Source: Rhodobiaceae bacterium (lineage in GTDB: Bacteria > Pseudomonadota > Alphaproteobacteria > Parvibaculales > Parvibaculaceae). Taken from it: a stretch of 32,962 nucleotides of DNA. Shown in pieces: positions 1-21,276 of the stretch (positions are counted from its first letter, which is position 1; each line of letters starts with the position of its first letter). The stretch covers positions 1 to 32,962 of the forward strand of contig PAZY01000020.1 of assembly GCA_002715765.1 (NCBI GenBank). Reading direction: 5' to 3'. The position numbers were made by a program, and so were the translations under genes. The notes beneath the pieces were generated by a model. That model searched no databases and was not told the origin of the DNA. It was given only the letters and a program-made list of their open reading frames with translations.

Positions 1-1
1 A

Positions 2-595
2 GAGGAAAGCATCGCAGCCCGCGCCGCTGCCAAGGGCATCACAGCACTTGAATATGCCTATGAAACAATGATGGAAAATGACGGCCAGCGGCTCATCTAT
101 TTCCCACTCTTCGGCTATTCAACGAATGACTTCACCGCCATTGAAGAGACGCTCCGCCACCCGCAGACCGGCATCAGCCTGGCCGATGGTGGCGCGCATG
201 TCGGCGCGATTTGCGACGGTGGAACACCAACCTTCATGCTGACCCACTGGACGCGGGACCGCACACGCGGCACCAAAATCGCGCTTGAGGATATGGTGCG
301 CATTCAGACACGCGATACAGCAGAACAATATGGCTTGCTGGATCGCGGCCTACTCGCGCCCGGCATGAAAGCCGACATCAACGTGATTGATTATAACAAT
401 CTGAAAATGCTGCAGCCAAAAATGGTATTCGACCTGCCAGCCAATGGCCGTCGCCTCCTGCAAAAGGCAGAAGGCTACAAAGCCACCATCGTGAGCGGAA
501 AAGTGGTTCTGCGGGATGGAGAATTCACGGGCGAACTGCCAGGCAAGCTGCTACGCGGTCCAAAAGCAGCACCCACAGCCCTCGCCGCTGAATAA
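2..595 (+). CDS. Amidohydrolase family protein, C-terminal part (N-acyl-D-amino-acid deacylase-like)
   Basis: The gene is cut by the left edge, so only about the last 197 residues are present; the frame is open from base 2 to a TAA at 593-595. The fragment has the end of a metal-dependent amidohydrolase barrel: a DGGAHVG segment whose Asp is the usual late metal ligand, then THWTRD, then a C-terminal beta-sandwich region with GLLAPGMKADINVID and GKVVLRDGEFTGELPG, typical of the COG3653 group (D-aminoacylases and related hydrolases). The substrate cannot be told from this part; many relatives of this type sit in catabolic clusters. It ends just before a strong terminator, so it is the last gene of its transcript. 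The family call is firm and the specific activity is not. Confidence 0.8.
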   Translation, partial: EESIAARAAAKGITALEYAYETMMENDGQRLIYFPLFGYSTNDFTAIEETLRHPQTGISLADGGAHVGAICDGGTPTFMLTHWTRDRTRGTKIALEDMVRIQTRDTAEQYGLLDRGLLAPGMKADINVIDYNNLKMLQPKMVFDLPANGRRLLQKAEGYKATIVSGKVVLRDGEFTGELPGKLLRGPKAAPTALAAE

Positions 596-620
596 AACAA
601 CTCAACATATCGCGAACCGA

Positions 621-660
621 AACGCGGAGCCCCAACGTGACAAAGGCTCCGCGTTTTTTA
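621..660 (+). terminator. Rho-independent terminator after the amidohydrolase gene
   Basis: A perfect 11-bp stem (AACGCGGAGCC at 621-631 pairing with GGCTCCGCGTT at 645-655) closes a 13-nt loop and runs into a T-rich tract ending at 659. It lies 25 bases after the amidohydrolase stop codon. Confidence 0.9.
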
Positions 661-666
661 ATGGCC

Positions 667-698
667 CTTGAAAGACTTGGCACTTGAAAGACTTGGCA
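667..698 (+). repeat. 16-bp perfect tandem duplication just upstream of the permease start
   Basis: CTTGAAAGACTTGGCA occurs at 667-682 and again at 683-698, directly followed by the ATG at 700. The duplication fills the place where a ribosome binding site would be, and no good Shine-Dalgarno sequence is seen there. Confidence 0.85.
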
Positions 699-699
699 T

Positions 700-1482
700 A
701 TGACTGACCTGCTTGACCTGTTCACCACCGACATCCTGATGCCCCACAATATGGGGTGGGACGATCTGGCCTTCGCCGCAGCCGCCATCTTCTTTGCGGG
801 TGCCTTGCGAGCCTATGCGGGATTTGGCTTTGCGCTCGCGGGCGTCCCGCTTCTCGCAGCCACCGCAGGCCCAGCCGCCGCCGTGCCCATGATCCTCGCG
901 CTGGAAATCCTGAGCGGCCTGCAAATGCTGCCGAAAGTGCGCCGCGATGCTGACTGGAAATCCATCTGGCTCATTCTGCCAACGGCAATCCTCGCCGCCC
1001 CGCTGGGCGTCTACCTGCTGGCGGTCTTGTCGGCTGACACGCTCCGCATTCTCATCGCCCTCACGCTTTTGAGTGCCGTTGCGCTGATGGCCTCCGGCCT
1101 CAAGCTTCCCGGACGATTGCCCGTTCCCGCCACACTCAGCATCGGCGGTGTGTCCGGCCTGCTCGCTGGCTCAACGGCCATGGCGGGCCCGCCAGTCCTG
1201 CTTTATTTTCTGGGGAGAGGCGACACGCCGGCTACCGCGCGCGCGTCCATGTTCATGTATTTCTCGCTGACCGGTGCCACGACGCTTCTCGTTGGCGTCG
1301 CCTCCGGCGTAGTCGCGCTTTCAACCATGTTGCTCACGCTCGTCCTCGCGCCAGCGCTCTTCTTGAGCAATCTGGCAGGCCATTCGCTCTTTCATGTGAT
1401 GGGCGACAAGCACTACCGCCCCATCGCCCTCACGCTCCTCACCGTCATCGCGTTCGTGACGCTCTGGCGGGCACTCGCCTAA
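700..1482 (+). CDS. Sulfite exporter TauE/SafE family (TSUP) permease
   Basis: A 260-residue, very hydrophobic protein with about eight predicted membrane segments. It has the TSUP hallmarks: an early small-residue-rich segment (AGFGFALAGVPLLA, about residues 41-54) and a second half-repeat with GGVSGLLAGSTAMAGPPVLL (about 149-168). The length is normal for the family. TSUP proteins are inner-membrane transporters of small sulfur-containing or organic anions such as sulfite, taurine-derived sulfoacetate or thiosulfate; the substrate cannot be predicted here. The ATG at 700 gives a short N-terminal stretch before the first helix but lacks a clear ribosome binding site. It follows a terminator, so it probably has its own promoter. 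Downstream is a gene-free repeat region. Confidence 0.85.
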   Translation: MTDLLDLFTTDILMPHNMGWDDLAFAAAAIFFAGALRAYAGFGFALAGVPLLAATAGPAAAVPMILALEILSGLQMLPKVRRDADWKSIWLILPTAILAAPLGVYLLAVLSADTLRILIALTLLSAVALMASGLKLPGRLPVPATLSIGGVSGLLAGSTAMAGPPVLLYFLGRGDTPATARASMFMYFSLTGATTLLVGVASGVVALSTMLLTLVLAPALFLSNLAGHSLFHVMGDKHYRPIALTLLTVIAFVTLWRALA

Positions 1483-1496
1483 GCACTCATCACTAC

Positions 1497-2435
1497 GTCA
1501 CCACCGGACTTGTTCCGGTGGTCCATAGCCCCGCCGACACATTCCTCGACCTGTCACCCCGGATTTAATCCGGGGTCCACATAAACTATCCGCAGGCAAA
1601 TACACTGCCATCACCCGACTTGTTCGGGTGGTCCCCTATCAGTAGCGTGGGTGGCGTAATTCGTAGTCTTCTATCCTTGACTCTGGATTACCCGGACAAG
1701 CCGGGTAATGACAATGAGGAAGAAACTCTGAAGACACAAAACCATGTCATACTCAGACAGTCACCCCAGCAGGCCCCTCAATCTGTCATTGCCGGGCTAG
1801 TCCCGGCAATCCAGAGCCCCAAGCGAAAGCAGCAAAGTCAGCATGGATGCCCGGTAACCACGTCCGGGCATGACAGTCAAAAAGTGCGTCACCCCGGATT
1901 TAATCCGGGGTCCACATAAACCATCCGCGCACAACAAACGCATCATGGATCCCGGCTCGGTCTTTCAGACTGTCCGGGATGACGATCACGAAAAGTGGCG
2001 CCCCAGTTCGCCCTTCAACCTGTCATTGCCGGATTCATTCCGGCAATCCAGAGCTACAAACAAAAGAAGCACGTTCAGTACCGCACGCCCGGTAACCACG
2101 TCCGGACATGACGGGAACAAAAAACTGTCACCACCCGACTTGTTCGGGTGGTCCAGGAGCGTCATGCATAGTCTTCTATCCGTGGCTCTGGATTACCCGG
2201 ACAAGCCGGGTAATGACAATGAGGAGGAAATGCTGAAGACACAAACCCATATCATACCCAGAGCGTCACCCCGGATTTAATCCGGGGTCCACAATTCGCA
2301 GGCGCGCGGTCGCATAAGGCAAGCTTTCCCCACTCCCTACCTGTCATTGCCGGACTTGTTCCGGCAATGACAGGGCCGCAAGCGAAAGAAGCAAGTTCAA
2401 CACTGGATGCCCGGTAACCACGTCCGGGCATGACA
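1497..2435 (+). repeat. Cluster of about 15 oriented palindromic repeats (BIME-like) filling a gene-free gap
   Basis: No gene is supported in 1483-2448. The gap holds palindromes at 1497-1525, 1552-1579, 1609-1634, 1684-1713, 1784-1813, 1844-1875, 1888-1914, 1946-1983, 2021-2050, 2082-2113, 2126-2155, 2189-2218, 2265-2291, 2342-2372 and 2404-2435. Each has a left end TGTCA, an inverted-repeat arm, a 5-9 nt centre and a right end TCCA. Because the ends differ, each copy has an orientation, and from 1609 on the orientation mostly alternates. Arms fall into classes (CCCCGGA, CACCCGA, TTGCCGG, TTACCCGG, ATGCCCGG, ATCCCGG), each matched by its own complement. ORFs here are only translations of the repeats. 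Confidence 0.9.
1609..2268 (+). repeat. Imperfect duplicated blocks including non-palindromic spacers
   Basis: About 150 bases from 1611 to roughly 1765 recur at about 2131-2268: a CACCCGA-arm palindrome, a spacer containing TAGTCTTCTATCC, a TTACCCGG-arm palindrome, then ACAATGAGGA and CTGAAGACACAAA. A second unit (TTGCCGG-arm palindrome, spacer with AAGCGAAAG-like sequence, ATGCCCGG-arm palindrome) occurs three times, at 1784-1875, 2021-2113 and 2342-2435. The region therefore grew by duplication of pairs as well as of single palindromes. Confidence 0.75.
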
Positions 2436-2448
2436 GCAAAAAAGCCCC

Positions 2449-4445
<1,997 letters not shown>

Positions 4446-4447
4446 TG

Positions 4448-4476
4448 ATTGTGCACTTTTCACAGCAAACCGTCAA
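4448..4476 (-). promoter_or_regulatory. Sigma-70 type promoter for the thiC transcript
   Basis: On the minus strand TTGACG (4471-4476) and CACAAT (4448-4453) are separated by 17 bases. The predicted start near 4441 falls exactly at the 5' end of the TPP aptamer, which supports the call. A 6-bp inverted repeat, GGCACA/TGTGCC, at 4512-4531 lies further upstream in this divergent intergenic region; no regulator is known for it. Confidence 0.7.
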
Positions 4477-4594
4477 AGCCTCGCTCAAAGTCCGTGACAG
4501 AGCGGGCGTCAGGCACAAACATCTGTGTGCCAATGTGACTTGAAGAATCGCCCGCCAAAGCTCAAGTGTCGTCTGTGACCTTGCGGAGAAAAAA

Positions 4595-5680
4595 ATGCCT
4601 GACAGCCCCAAACCCCTATGGCCAGACACAAGACTGCTTGACCTGTTTGGCCTGACACATCCCATCATCCAGGCACCCATGGCCGGCGTATCAAGCACCG
4701 ATATGGCCATCGCCGCGGCCAACGCCGGGTGCATGGGGGCATTGGGATGCGCCATGACATCACCGTCAGACCTTGCAAAGCAGTTGGCGCAGGTCGTCCG
4801 GTCAACCAATGGGCCAGTCAATTTCAACTTCTTCGTCCATCAGGAGCCGGATATTGCCGGTTTCGACAACACGGAAATCAGAAAGGCACTGCAACCCGCT
4901 TATACAGCAGCAGACCTGGGTGAGGTTCCCGCCCCCACCGCAGGCGCATCAGCCTTTAGCGATGACATACTGGACATTCTCCTTGCCCGGCCGCCAAAAA
5001 CCGTAAGCTTCCATTTCGGCCTGCCAAAGCCACACGTCATCACAGCCTTGAAAGACAGGCAGGTGAAGCTGATCGGCTGCGCCACATGCGTGGCAGAGGC
5101 AAAAGCACTTGAAGCGGGCGGCATGGACGCCATCGTCGCCCAGGGCGCGGAGGCCGGGGGCCATCGCGGTACCTTTCTGGGCGAGCCCCACCTCAATGAC
5201 ATGGGAACCATGGCCCTTGTTCCTCTCATCGCAGATGCCGTGCGCGTACCCGTGATTGCCGCGGGCGGTATTTTCGATGGTCGCGGCATCGCCGCCGCCT
5301 TCATGCTGGGTGCGGCCGGGGTACAGATCGGCACCGCCTTCATGCGCGCAACGGAGGCAACGACCCATCCACTCCACAAACAGGCCCTTGCAACTTCACA
5401 CGACGCACAGACCCGCCTGACACGCCTTTTCTCAGGGCGCCCGGCCCGCTCGCTGCGCAACCGCCTGACGGATGAATGGGCGCACGCGGAAAACATCACC
5501 GCCCCTTTCCCCGCACAGCGCTCTCTCATCGCACCGCTGGCAAAAGCCGCACTCCAGGCAGGCAGCACAGACTTCCACAATCTGTGGAGCGGACAGGCAG
5601 GCAGCCGCGCAGCGGAACAATCAACCGCCGGAATCATCGAACATCTGGTGACAAGTGCTCTCACCCGACTGGCAAGATAA
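4595..5680 (+). CDS. Nitronate monooxygenase-like flavoprotein (2-nitropropane dioxygenase family)
   Basis: A 361-residue FMN-binding TIM-barrel protein. The N-terminal HPIIQAPMAGVSS (residues 22-34), the VAQGAEAGGHRG segment (181-192, with the His used as base by class I enzymes) and the phosphate-binding VIAAGGIFDGRGIAAAFMLG are all present. Class I members oxidise alkyl nitronates such as propionate-3-nitronate, using oxygen and FMN; others are annotated only as flavin oxidoreductases, so the physiological substrate is open. It is soluble and cytoplasmic. It is divergent from thiC and followed 66 bases later by a MAPEG gene on the same strand. The ATG at 4595 follows an A-rich stretch with GGAG upstream. 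Confidence 0.85.
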   Translation: MPDSPKPLWPDTRLLDLFGLTHPIIQAPMAGVSSTDMAIAAANAGCMGALGCAMTSPSDLAKQLAQVVRSTNGPVNFNFFVHQEPDIAGFDNTEIRKALQPAYTAADLGEVPAPTAGASAFSDDILDILLARPPKTVSFHFGLPKPHVITALKDRQVKLIGCATCVAEAKALEAGGMDAIVAQGAEAGGHRGTFLGEPHLNDMGTMALVPLIADAVRVPVIAAGGIFDGRGIAAAFMLGAAGVQIGTAFMRATEATTHPLHKQALATSHDAQTRLTRLFSGRPARSLRNRLTDEWAHAENITAPFPAQRSLIAPLAKAALQAGSTDFHNLWSGQAGSRAAEQSTAGIIEHLVTSALTRLAR

Positions 5681-5746
5681 ACACACTCGCCATTCCTCGA
5701 GAAAAAAGGCATGGTTTCCCCCTCAATCACAAAGGGAGGGAACCCA

Positions 5747-6139
5747 ATGTCAGTTGAACTATCCATACTCATGTGGAGCGGCGTCCTGTTGCTCGTTCTT
5801 ATATTGACCTCGGCCAATGCCAACCTCATGTCGATGGGTTTGAGCTGGGGACTGGGAAACCGCGATGACGCCGCCACACCTCCAGCCTGGGGTGCTCGGG
5901 CAAAACGGGCCTATATGAACCTTCTGGAAAACCTCCTGGTTTTCGCCGCAATCCTCTTGCCTGTCAGCCTGTCGGGCATCAGCAATGACATGACCGTCCT
6001 CGGTGCACAGATTTTCCTTGGCGCACGTATCGTACACGCCCTGGTATATGTCACAGGCGTTACGCTTCTGGGCATTCGCACCCTGGCCTACTTTGCAGGC
6101 ATTGCAGGCACCGTGATTATTCTGCTGCAAGCGCTCTGA
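5747..6139 (+). CDS. MAPEG family membrane protein
   Basis: A 130-residue protein with four hydrophobic segments and the MAPEG-type motif around RAKRAYMNLLENLLVFA (about residues 53-69), where the Asn/Glu pair normally contacts glutathione or helix partners. Eukaryotic MAPEG proteins are glutathione-dependent enzymes of eicosanoid and detoxification metabolism; bacterial short members have unknown roles. I chose the ATG at 5747, because AAGGGAGGG lies just upstream, over an in-frame ATG at 5711 that would place that site inside the coding region. It may be co-transcribed with the preceding flavoprotein gene. A terminator follows 12 bases after its stop. Confidence 0.8.
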   Translation: MSVELSILMWSGVLLLVLILTSANANLMSMGLSWGLGNRDDAATPPAWGARAKRAYMNLLENLLVFAAILLPVSLSGISNDMTVLGAQIFLGARIVHALVYVTGVTLLGIRTLAYFAGIAGTVIILLQAL

Positions 6140-6149
6140 TACAGCACCC

Positions 6150-6186
6150 GCAAAAAAGCCCGGTCATTTTGTGACCGGGCTTTGAT
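6150..6186. terminator. Bidirectional terminator between convergent genes
   Basis: AAAGCCCGGTCA (about 6155-6166) pairs with TGACCGGGCTTT (6172-6183) across a 5-nt loop. It is flanked by A residues on the left and T residues on the right, so it can serve both the MAPEG gene (+) and the lipoprotein gene (-). Confidence 0.85.
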
Positions 6187-6222
6187 CAGCGTAATTTGAA
6201 AGCAGTTACAGCCTGCTTTAAC

Positions 6223-6639
6223 CTAAGGCTGAGCAGCTTCGTCCGCTGCCTCTTCCACGGCTTCCGCGCCATCTTCTCCGGCTTCGCCCACAGCCTCACC
6301 TGCATCGCGCGTCGCCTCTTCAACGGCATTTACGGCATCACTTGCCGCATTATCCACCGCCTCCATCGCCTCATCAGCGGCATTTCCTGCCGCTTCTGCA
6401 GCCTCACCAGCTGCCTCGACAGCCGAATTTGCGGCCTCTCCCGCTGCATCAGCAGCTTCCCCCATGGCTTCGGTAGCCGATTCCATCATCGATGATGCCG
6501 CCCCCGTGCCTTCAGAACTGTCACTTTCCTCAGCCGCCGGCGTTGTTTCCTCATCCTCCGACGGATTGTCACAAGCCGAAACGAACAGCGCCCCGGCAAA
6601 AGCAAGCGAAAGAGCAAATTTATACGAAAGATTGGACAT
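6223..6639 (-). CDS. Alanine-rich acidic lipoprotein of unknown function
   Basis: A 138-residue protein with an N-terminal lipoprotein signal (hydrophobic run, then VSAC with Cys 23), an acidic Ser/Glu/Thr linker, and from about residue 48 to the end an almost uninterrupted Ala/Glu/Gly helix-forming region with repeating EAAGEAAxA-type units and very few basic residues. This composition predicts a long negatively charged amphipathic helix, as in LEA-like or apolipoprotein-like proteins; I do not recognise a named family. The ATG at 6639 has GGGGAGGGA just upstream, whereas the longer frame starts before this site. It lies downstream of purA in the same direction, 156 bases away. Confidence 0.75.
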   Translation of the reverse strand: MSNLSYKFALSLAFAGALFVSACDNPSEDEETTPAAEESDSSEGTGAASSMMESATEAMGEAADAAGEAANSAVEAAGEAAEAAGNAADEAMEAVDNAASDAVNAVEEATRDAGEAVGEAGEDGAEAVEEAADEAAQP

Positions 6640-6722
6640 GACGTCCCTCCCCTGATTGTGGATACACAAACGGCATCCCTTGCGTCCCCCGTTTTCATAT
6701 CGGAAGGGAAGCAAAGCACAGT

Positions 6723-6751
6723 GCCGGATACGGTTCAACCCCGTAACCGGC
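6723..6751 (-). terminator. Possible terminator hairpin downstream of purA
   Basis: An 11-bp stem with one mismatch (GCCGGTTACGG and CCGTATCCGGC read on the minus strand) encloses a 7-nt loop, about 45 bases after the purA stop. The tail is only mildly T-rich, so termination may be weak. Confidence 0.45.
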
Positions 6752-6795
6752 TCATGCTAGCGATCAAGTGTGACGCCCTAATCTCGGGGCAGATA

Positions 6796-8088
6796 TCAAT
6801 CCGCAAACGGATCATGCATAAGGATTGTGTCATCCCGCTCTGGTGAAGTGGAAAGAAGCGCCACAGGGCACTCGATCAGCTCCTCCACATAACGTACATA
6901 TTTGACTGCCGCCGCAGGCAGATCTGCCCAGCTCCGCGCCCCGTAGGTGCTCTCGGACCAGCCTTCCATTTCTTCATAAACAGGCGTGATCCGCGCCTGA
7001 AGCGCGGGCGTGGCCGGCAGATAGTCAATACGCTTGCCATCAAGCTCGTAGGCGACACAAATCTTGAGCGTGTCAAACCCGTCCAGCACATCAAGCTTGG
7101 TCAATGCGATACCTTGCATACCATTGGTTTTAAGCGCCTGGTTGACCAGCACCGCGTCAAACCAGCCACAGCGGCGCTTGCGCCCTGTCACCGTGCCGAA
7201 CTCACGCCCCCGTTCACCCAGGCGGATACCGTCATCATCATGCAGCTCAGTCGGAAATGGACCTTCACCCACGCGCGTTGTGTAGGCTTTGGTAATCCCC
7301 AGAACATATTCAACCGCCGACGGCCCCATGCCGGAGCCCGTGGCCGCCTGTCCTGAAACCACATTCGATGATGTGACAAAAGGATAGGTCCCATGGTCGA
7401 TATCCAGAAGCGTGCCTTGCGCCCCTTCAAACAGGATACGCTTGCCGGCCTTGCGGGCTTCCGCGAGGAAACGCCAAACCGTGTCCATATGCGGCAGAAT
7501 GCGCGGTGCCACGTCCATCAACGCCTGTACAATAGGAGCCGCTTCCATCTCCTCAACACCAAGGCCGGGACGCAGCGCGTTGTGGTGATCAAGCAGCTTC
7601 TCCACCTTGTCGCCCAACGTATCCGGGTCAGCCAGGTCCATCACCCGGATCGCACGACGCCCCACCTTGTCTTCATAAGCCGGGCCGATGCCGCGCTTCG
7701 TTGTGCCGATCTTTGTACCTGTGTTGGAGGTTTCGCGGATCACATCCAGTTGCTGGTGCACCGGCAGGATCAGAACAGCATTCTCCGCGATCTTGAGATT
7801 GGCAGGTGAAACCGCAACGCCCTGCTCTGCCAGCTTGTCAATCTCTGTGGTCAGTGCCCAGGGGTCGATCACCACACCATTGCCGAGCACAGACATTTTT
7901 CCCGGACGAACGATCCCGGAAGGCAGAAGAGACAGCTTGTACGTCACGCCATCAATTACAAGCGTATGACCTGCATTGTGCCCGCCTTGAAAGCGCACGA
8001 CGACATCCGCGCGCTCCGAGAGCCAATCCACAATCTTGCCTTTGCCTTCGTCGCCCCATTGGGAGCCGACGACCGCTACGTTCGCCAT
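6796..8088 (-). CDS. purA: Adenylosuccinate synthetase PurA
   Basis: A 430-residue GTP-dependent enzyme joining IMP and aspartate to adenylosuccinate, the first committed step to AMP; cytoplasmic homodimer. The N-terminal [11 protein letters not shown] (residues 8-18) carries the catalytic Asp 13, and GGHNAGHT carries the catalytic His. The IMP-binding [14 protein letters not shown] and the base-recognition region [21 protein letters not shown] are present. I start at the ATG at 8088 because [18 protein letters not shown] is the normal N-terminus; the frame extends 19 codons further without matching the family. A terminator sits between serA and purA, so purA is probably transcribed on its own. 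Confidence 0.97.
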
Positions 8089-11066: not shown

Positions 11067-11117
11067 ATCTGTATCTATCCTCACAGATAGTCGCCTCTCG
11101 GTGGGGAGAGGTGGCCC
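11067..11117 (-). promoter_or_regulatory. Structured serC leader (resembles the alphaproteobacterial serC RNA motif)
   Basis: On the minus strand the short leader contains CCTCTC/GAGAGG (11106-11111 with 11094-11099) followed by ATCTGT/ACAGAT (11083-11088 with 11067-11072). The loop of the second stem holds GAGG, the likely ribosome binding element, and the stem ends at the ATG. A third possible stem, CCCACCG/CGGTGGG (11115-11121 with 11099-11105), would exclude the first. Position and form fit the serC motif known from comparative RNA searches in Alphaproteobacteria; I could not check a covariance model. Confidence 0.55.
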
Positions 11118-11123
11118 ACCGCC

Positions 11124-20822: not shown

Positions 20823-21276
20823 TGTCATCCCGGACGGGCGCGAGCCCGAGCCGGAATCCATAATGCAGAACAGAAAAACCAACCTGTCATTACCCGGCTT
20901 GTCCGGGTAATCCAGAACCTAAGTCTGAAGACAACGCATGACGCCCCTGGACCACCCGAACAAGTCGGGTGGTGACAATCGTTCTTTTCGAGCCACAATC
21001 GCCTCATCCAAAAATGTCATCCCGGACGGGCGGAGGCCCGAGCCGGGATCCATAATGCAGAACAGAAAAACCCAGATTGAAAATGGACCCCGGGTCAGGC
21101 CCGGGGTGACAGCAGAGCGTGAAAACCCTGCGGCACCAAAACCAACCCCAACCTGTCATTACCTGGCTTGTCCGGGTAATCCATGGAGCAGGTCGGCAAG
21201 ACACCAAGTCAGGACTGGATGCCCGGAACAAGTCCGGGCATGACGGCGGCCTTTGCGGCAACGTCCGGGCATCACA
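20823..21276 (+). repeat. Second cluster of oriented palindromic repeats between folP and ftsH
   Basis: The gene-free gap 20781-21361 holds palindromes at 20823-20860, 20885-20914, 20948-20977, 21015-21052, 21084-21111, 21154-21183 and 21216-21244, plus a half element near 21258-21276. They use the same TGTCA/TCCA end scheme as the 1.5-2.4 kb cluster and orientations forward, forward, reverse, forward, reverse, forward, reverse. The ATCCCGG-arm copies and their 3' spacer (ATAATGCAGAACAGAAAAAC) are duplicated at 20823-20879 and 21015-21071. Confidence 0.9.

Follow-up and report, generated by a model that had tools for sequence, protein, structure and literature searches.

The CGTC-tagged REPs were defined by Di Nocera, De Gregorio and Rocco in 2013 and include dRS3 of Neisseria as well as RPE-4 and RPE-6 of Rickettsia; according to that paper, they have no association with transposase genes (PMC3733652). 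Repeats of this class carry an unpaired CGTC or TGTC at one end and a CCA-like tail at the other, enclose a loop of 4-5 nt in a stem of 8-9 bp that usually begins with A, and occur predominantly as head-head dimers, mostly heterodimers, in intergenic regions downstream of genes and rarely between divergent genes, clusters being rare (PMC3733652). The REPIN/RAYT and BIME systems, based on the GTAG REPs of Pseudomonas and the enterobacteria, are also comparable: oriented hairpins are copied in pairs, matching REPs flank a conserved gene of low copy number, and arrays grow. BIMEs are marked by alternating REPs that bind gyrase, IHF or Pol I, and alternation is present in this array. The repeats examined here are CGTC REPs, having the tag, stem, loop, tail, dimeric arrangement and intergenic, alphaproteobacterial location of that class; they depart from it in forming a large cluster of 15 copies, in including variants with long or 9-nt loops, and in having a candidate gene partner. 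They share with the REPIN/RAYT and BIME systems the copied hairpin pair, the flanked low-copy gene and array growth, but they carry a GTC tag in place of GTAG and are associated with a GIY-YIG nuclease in place of a Y1 HUH transposase. A literature search with the exact motif returned nothing relevant.

The window, meaning the whole stretch of DNA that was analysed, is a contig of 32,962 nucleotides from the draft assembly of a Rhodobiaceae bacterium (3.65 Mb in 59 contigs, 98.5% complete and 8.2% contaminated), whose named relatives are Rhodobiaceae MAGs and Alpha proteobacterium Mf 1.05b.01. The gap between a TauE/SafE family gene (700..1482, + strand; PF01925, 1.2e-23) and the convergent thiC gene (2449..4293, - strand; PF01964, 9e-186) is filled by a 940-base cluster of 15 oriented palindromes (1496-2435), which ends 13 nt from the stop codon of each neighbour. 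A blind hairpin scan found 14 perfect hairpins in this region, compared with a mean of 0.7 and a maximum of 3 in Markov resamples of it. A TPP riboswitch (RF00059, 69.6 bits; 4333-4446, - strand) is located upstream of thiC, as expected, and a serC leader RNA (RF00517, 67.7 bits) is present at 11070-11121 (- strand).

The order of copies in the cluster is F F F R F R F R F R F R F, followed by a symmetric copy and R. Two F copies stand at its start, a single one at 1496..1525 (+ strand), 13 nt past the tauE stop codon, and one of the 8-bp type at 1552..1579 (+ strand; ACCCCGGA). Five head-head units include F 1606-1635 with R 1684-1713 (1606..1713, spacer 48), F 1784-1813 with R 1844-1875 (1784..1875, spacer 30), F 1887-1914 with a long-loop R at 1946-1984 (1887..1984, spacer 31), F 2021-2050 with R 2082-2113, which has a degenerate tail (2021..2113, spacer 31), and F 2126-2155 with R 2189-2218 (2126..2218, spacer 33). 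Copy 13 is a single F of the 8-bp type (2264..2291, + strand), and the last unit (2342..2435) pairs the symmetric copy at 2342-2371 with R 2404-2435, 13 nt from the thiC stop codon. Two blocks recur on the + strand within the region as segmental duplications, one at 1654..1767 and 2159-2272 (89%) and the other at 1783..1895 and 2341-2455 (85%), and the array was probably enlarged in this way as well.

The unequal ends TGTCA and TCCA, ascribed to every copy by the sequence-only reading, are found in 12 of the 15; the copies at 1606 (TGCC..CCC), 2082 (..TGCG) and 2342 (TGTCA..TGACA) lack one of them. Alternation after the first three copies was borne out as far as copy 13 and is broken at 2342, the orientation of which cannot be scored because its ends are symmetric. 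At least seven arm types occur in this array, where at least six had been claimed, and base pairing is indeed kept as arm sequence varies: among 12 nine-bp copies, 100% of cells are paired, double-sided changes are present in 5 of 9 arm pairs, the covariation score was reached by none of 500 shuffles, and slid controls fail. A stem of 9 bp with a loop of 5 nt is found in 12 of the 22 copies in the window, the others being of 8/5, 8/9 or long-loop type. The sequence-only description, of oriented hairpins with compensating arms that form a REP/BIME-like array in an alphaproteobacterium, is supported.

The unit that is copied is an outward-tagged head-head pair of hairpins, approximately 92 bp long with a spacer of 29-34 bp, because the spacing from F to R is near-constant and homology ends at the ends of the unit. 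At least 73 matches to the REP model were found genome-wide among the best 150 of 4108 candidates scored, and their orientation, for which a genome-wide check had been proposed, is far from random: of 30 gaps between adjacent F and R copies, 27 measure 29-34 bp, compared with 9 to 109 bp for R-F gaps and 12 to 117 for gaps between copies of the same direction. Gaps of 27-36 bp account for 52 of 68 F-R intervals, 9 of 35 R-F intervals and none of 11 tandem intervals in three congeneric genomes. The head-head unit is also present in two congeners (G002 and G004), some loci of which have minor spacer classes of about 20 and 110 bp (L082, L084, L097, L100, L098, L099). Units at unrelated loci are in most comparisons homologous only up to their ends, give or take one or two bases; between 2126-2218 and 20885-20977 (89% over 93 bp) the homology ends exactly there. 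Since a head-head pair is its own mirror image, tandem copies must alternate, and the alternation, real as it is, carries no information of its own, being a by-product of the copied symmetric pair. Pairs with identical arms number 0 in 52 units, compared with 3.3 expected (P=0.03), an avoidance that is only suggestive because related units are not independent.

A second array in the window, between folP and ftsH (20823-21245), has seven copies in the order F F R F R F R. It opens with a long-loop F copy (20823..20860, + strand, read by eye), and its head-head units are located at 20885..20977, 21015..21111 and 21154..21245. REP sites number 20 in convergent, 32 in unidirectional and 2 in divergent intergenic regions, such that the 3' ends of genes are favoured. 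Occupancy of one and the same site differs between sister species and between haplotypes. The draft assembly is a strain mixture, containing a second haplotype of the locus (L054, contig C46, 1-8247, corresponding to 1-7807 of the window, contig C20, with 98% identity over thiC) whose tauE-thiC gap is free of REPs and is taken up by 1.37 kb of different sequence that appears to contain genes. Another pair of haplotypes (L067 on contig C51 and L068 on contig C53), 98-99% identical, diverges precisely where a REP cluster lies, and such clusters appear to be hotspots of variation among strains.

Filled and empty sites were also found among congeners, where a REP-bearing stretch of G004 was compared with G001-G003 (81-91% identical) and sites filled in one genome are empty in others. 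The filler at one G004 site is a 97-codon gene for a GIY-YIG domain (PF01541, 6.5e-14), with an F REP on one side and an R REP on the other; a filled/empty contrast was also observed at sites B and C. In Azospirillum lipoferum 4B, 617 bp between sufB and sufC are occupied by F R, a GIY-YIG gene and another F R, compared with a gap of approximately 90-130 bp with no REP and no gene in A. ramasamyi, A. oryzae and strain B510 (95-97% identical); this block is an insertion absent from the relatives. Shinella presents the same kind of contrast. Neither sites A-C nor Azospirillum showed a clean target-site duplication, and the boundaries between filled and empty sites are ragged.

The genome from which the window derives has a single homolog of this GIY-YIG subfamily, encoding 97 amino acids (contig C37, 1667-1960; locus L056) and located inside a head-head pair (F 1618-1647 and R 1981-2010 of that contig), and its orthologue in G002 and G004 has the same neighbour genes. 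F-R pairs separated by 150-1200 bp contain this gene in 4 of 5 cases in these three genomes. The catalytic residues Y19, R29, E66 and N85 are kept at 98-100% in 85 sequences including that of this genome, the PF01541 domain having the catalytic Tyr, Arg and Glu of GIY-YIG nucleases, and dN/dS values of 0.13 and 0.01 indicate purifying selection. The fold and the catalytic Tyr, Arg, Glu and Asn are common to the GIY-YIG homing endonucleases and to YhbQ/UPF0213; the REP-associated proteins are a separate subfamily, with a weak match to UPF0213 structures (E 0.001), and unlike the genes of homing endonucleases, theirs are flanked by REPs and not inside introns.

The association of REPs with this subfamily extends across genomes. 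A CGTC REP is present within 160 bp of 51 of 90 alphaproteobacterial subfamily genes, and on both sides of 28, of which 18 have the REPs outward (head-head), 7 inward and 3 in the same direction. Reversed sequences gave 1 locus of 90, and REPs flank none of the 20 genes examined from a different GIY-YIG subfamily, several of which come from these same genomes. A second sample gave 15 of 26 (null 0 of 26), including all 10 genes tested from other classes of Pseudomonadota. Named records with REP-flanked genes include A. lipoferum, Shinella, Rhizobium CIAT894, Sphingobium and Aeromonas caviae, and the GIY-YIG gene of N. gonorrhoeae is located within a dRS3 array; no REP link was found in the R. 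tumorigenes record, and none was clear in S. meliloti. The REP-associated proteins of A. lipoferum and Rhizobium sp. CIAT894 have the accessions WP_014249537.1 and WP_020920629.1. In a survey of 190 alphaproteobacterial genomes, with a REP model built from the genome of the window and top candidates counted, the GIY-YIG gene is present in 27 of 32 REP-positive and 29 of 158 REP-negative genomes (P=1.3e-12), negative meaning that this REP subtype was not detected; the co-occurrence holds when only genomes of 2.3 Mb or more are counted (P=1.5e-10) and with genome size in a logistic model (z=5.6). The left and right REPs of one locus match each other (0.72 compared with 0.36, P=1e-4) and their sequences differ between lineages, with a correlation between protein and REP similarity (Mantel r=0.20, P=0.007). 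One flanking REP pattern was found six times in the 190 genomes, always in its own genome. One alphaproteobacterial genome (G158) has 11 subfamily genes, several with a distinct REP pair of their own, a natural set for tests of specificity. Relatives of the GIY-YIG gene have other GTCAT-type repeats alongside on a Planktothrix agardhii plasmid (L261, 698-982) and in Spirosoma (L266, 686-979). The association may extend beyond Pseudomonadota, to a cyanobacterium and a member of the Bacteroidota.

We consider that the array, a CGTC REP cluster of head-head units, was probably copied in trans by this candidate nuclease, the product of a single-copy gene. The GIY-YIG nuclease would recognise an extruded REP hairpin by its unpaired GTC tag and CCA tail and would nick at the hairpin foot, after which repair or replication could copy the unit elsewhere, so that the nuclease would act on REPs and cause their spread. 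By analogy with RAYT/REPIN, the GIY-YIG gene together with its REPs may be an autonomous element from which the 92-bp pairs derive by deletion; copied in trans, these pairs would be non-autonomous, REPIN-like elements that have spread through the genome into the 3' ends of genes. The association is not absolute, because the REP-rich genomes G116 and G128 have no GIY-YIG gene and some subfamily genes, 39 of the 90, have no REP detected within 160 bp, which counts against this proposal. Some of the latter loci have hairpins with near-tags, but the mean number of 8-bp hairpins (0.44 per locus) is not above that of the control (0.8). It also counts against a copying role that filled and empty sites have ragged boundaries with no target-site duplication seen, and that we know of no strand-transfer function for a bare GIY-YIG domain of 97 amino acids.

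The main alternative is that the GIY-YIG gene is a homing-type parasite with REPs as its insertion targets, and that another amplifier spreads the REPs. GIY-YIG nucleases are classic homing endonucleases, and some IS elements use Pseudomonas REPs as insertion targets. The inward orientation of the nearest REPs in 7 of the 28 two-sided loci, as when a gene lies between two units, counts for this alternative and against copying by the nuclease, and the A. lipoferum gene, with a complete pair on each side, likewise looks as if inserted between units. However, both flanking REPs are whole and match each other, the gene takes the place of the spacer at fairly constant short distances, and it is usually present in one or few copies, syntenic within a genus and under strong purifying selection. 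The parasite explanation is disfavoured because RAYTs and their REPs show this pattern, and we regard it as unlikely.

A less probable explanation still is that REPs are host regulatory elements (stabilisers of mRNA 3' ends, terminators, or gyrase-type sites as in BIMEs) with only an incidental link to the GIY-YIG gene. The stable hairpins and the preference for convergent over divergent sites, near stop codons, are consistent with it, but a location at 3' ends equally fits a neutral refuge, the excess of terminator-like sites is weak (3 compared with 1.2 expected), occupancy of the same site changes between sister species and haplotypes, and neither the unit boundaries nor the association with the GIY-YIG gene is explained. 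Mobilisation by a RAYT (Y1 HUH transposase), suggested by the sequence-only reading and by a REPIN/RAYT-like architecture of tagged hairpins, head-head pairs and spread (PMC3733652), is unsupported and very improbable, now or before loss of such a gene, as a profile search that was positive in five control genomes found no Y1_Tnp gene (PF01797), REP-flanked or otherwise, in the genome of the window and none in G002 or G004, Y1 does not track REPs over the 190 genomes (6 of 32 REP-positive and 38 of 158 REP-negative genomes, P=0.65), and no CGTC REP was found beside a transposase by Di Nocera et al. (2013).

The GIY-YIG nuclease is thus a strong candidate for the missing enzyme that spreads CGTC REPs. 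No report of a link of GIY-YIG with REP, REPIN, dRS3, RAYT, MITE or inverted repeats was found among 5.39 million open papers, and the novelty of the link is provisional. There is perhaps an even chance that an unrecognised class of bacterial mobile element is represented here, in which a dedicated GIY-YIG nuclease copies units with palindromic ends (the CGTC REPs, dRS3 of Neisseria among them); it would be an independent counterpart of RAYT/REPIN, found throughout Alphaproteobacteria, in other Pseudomonadota and perhaps more widely. CGTC REPs belong to the short repeats that are common in Alphaproteobacteria, and the dense dRS3 arrays of Neisseria consist of them; they have been said since 2013 to lack a dedicated transposase. 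The presence of a small conserved nuclease gene between matching REPs makes the question of the missing transposase directly testable by biochemistry and genetics, and suggests that two or more unrelated nucleases were involved in the rise of REP-type elements.
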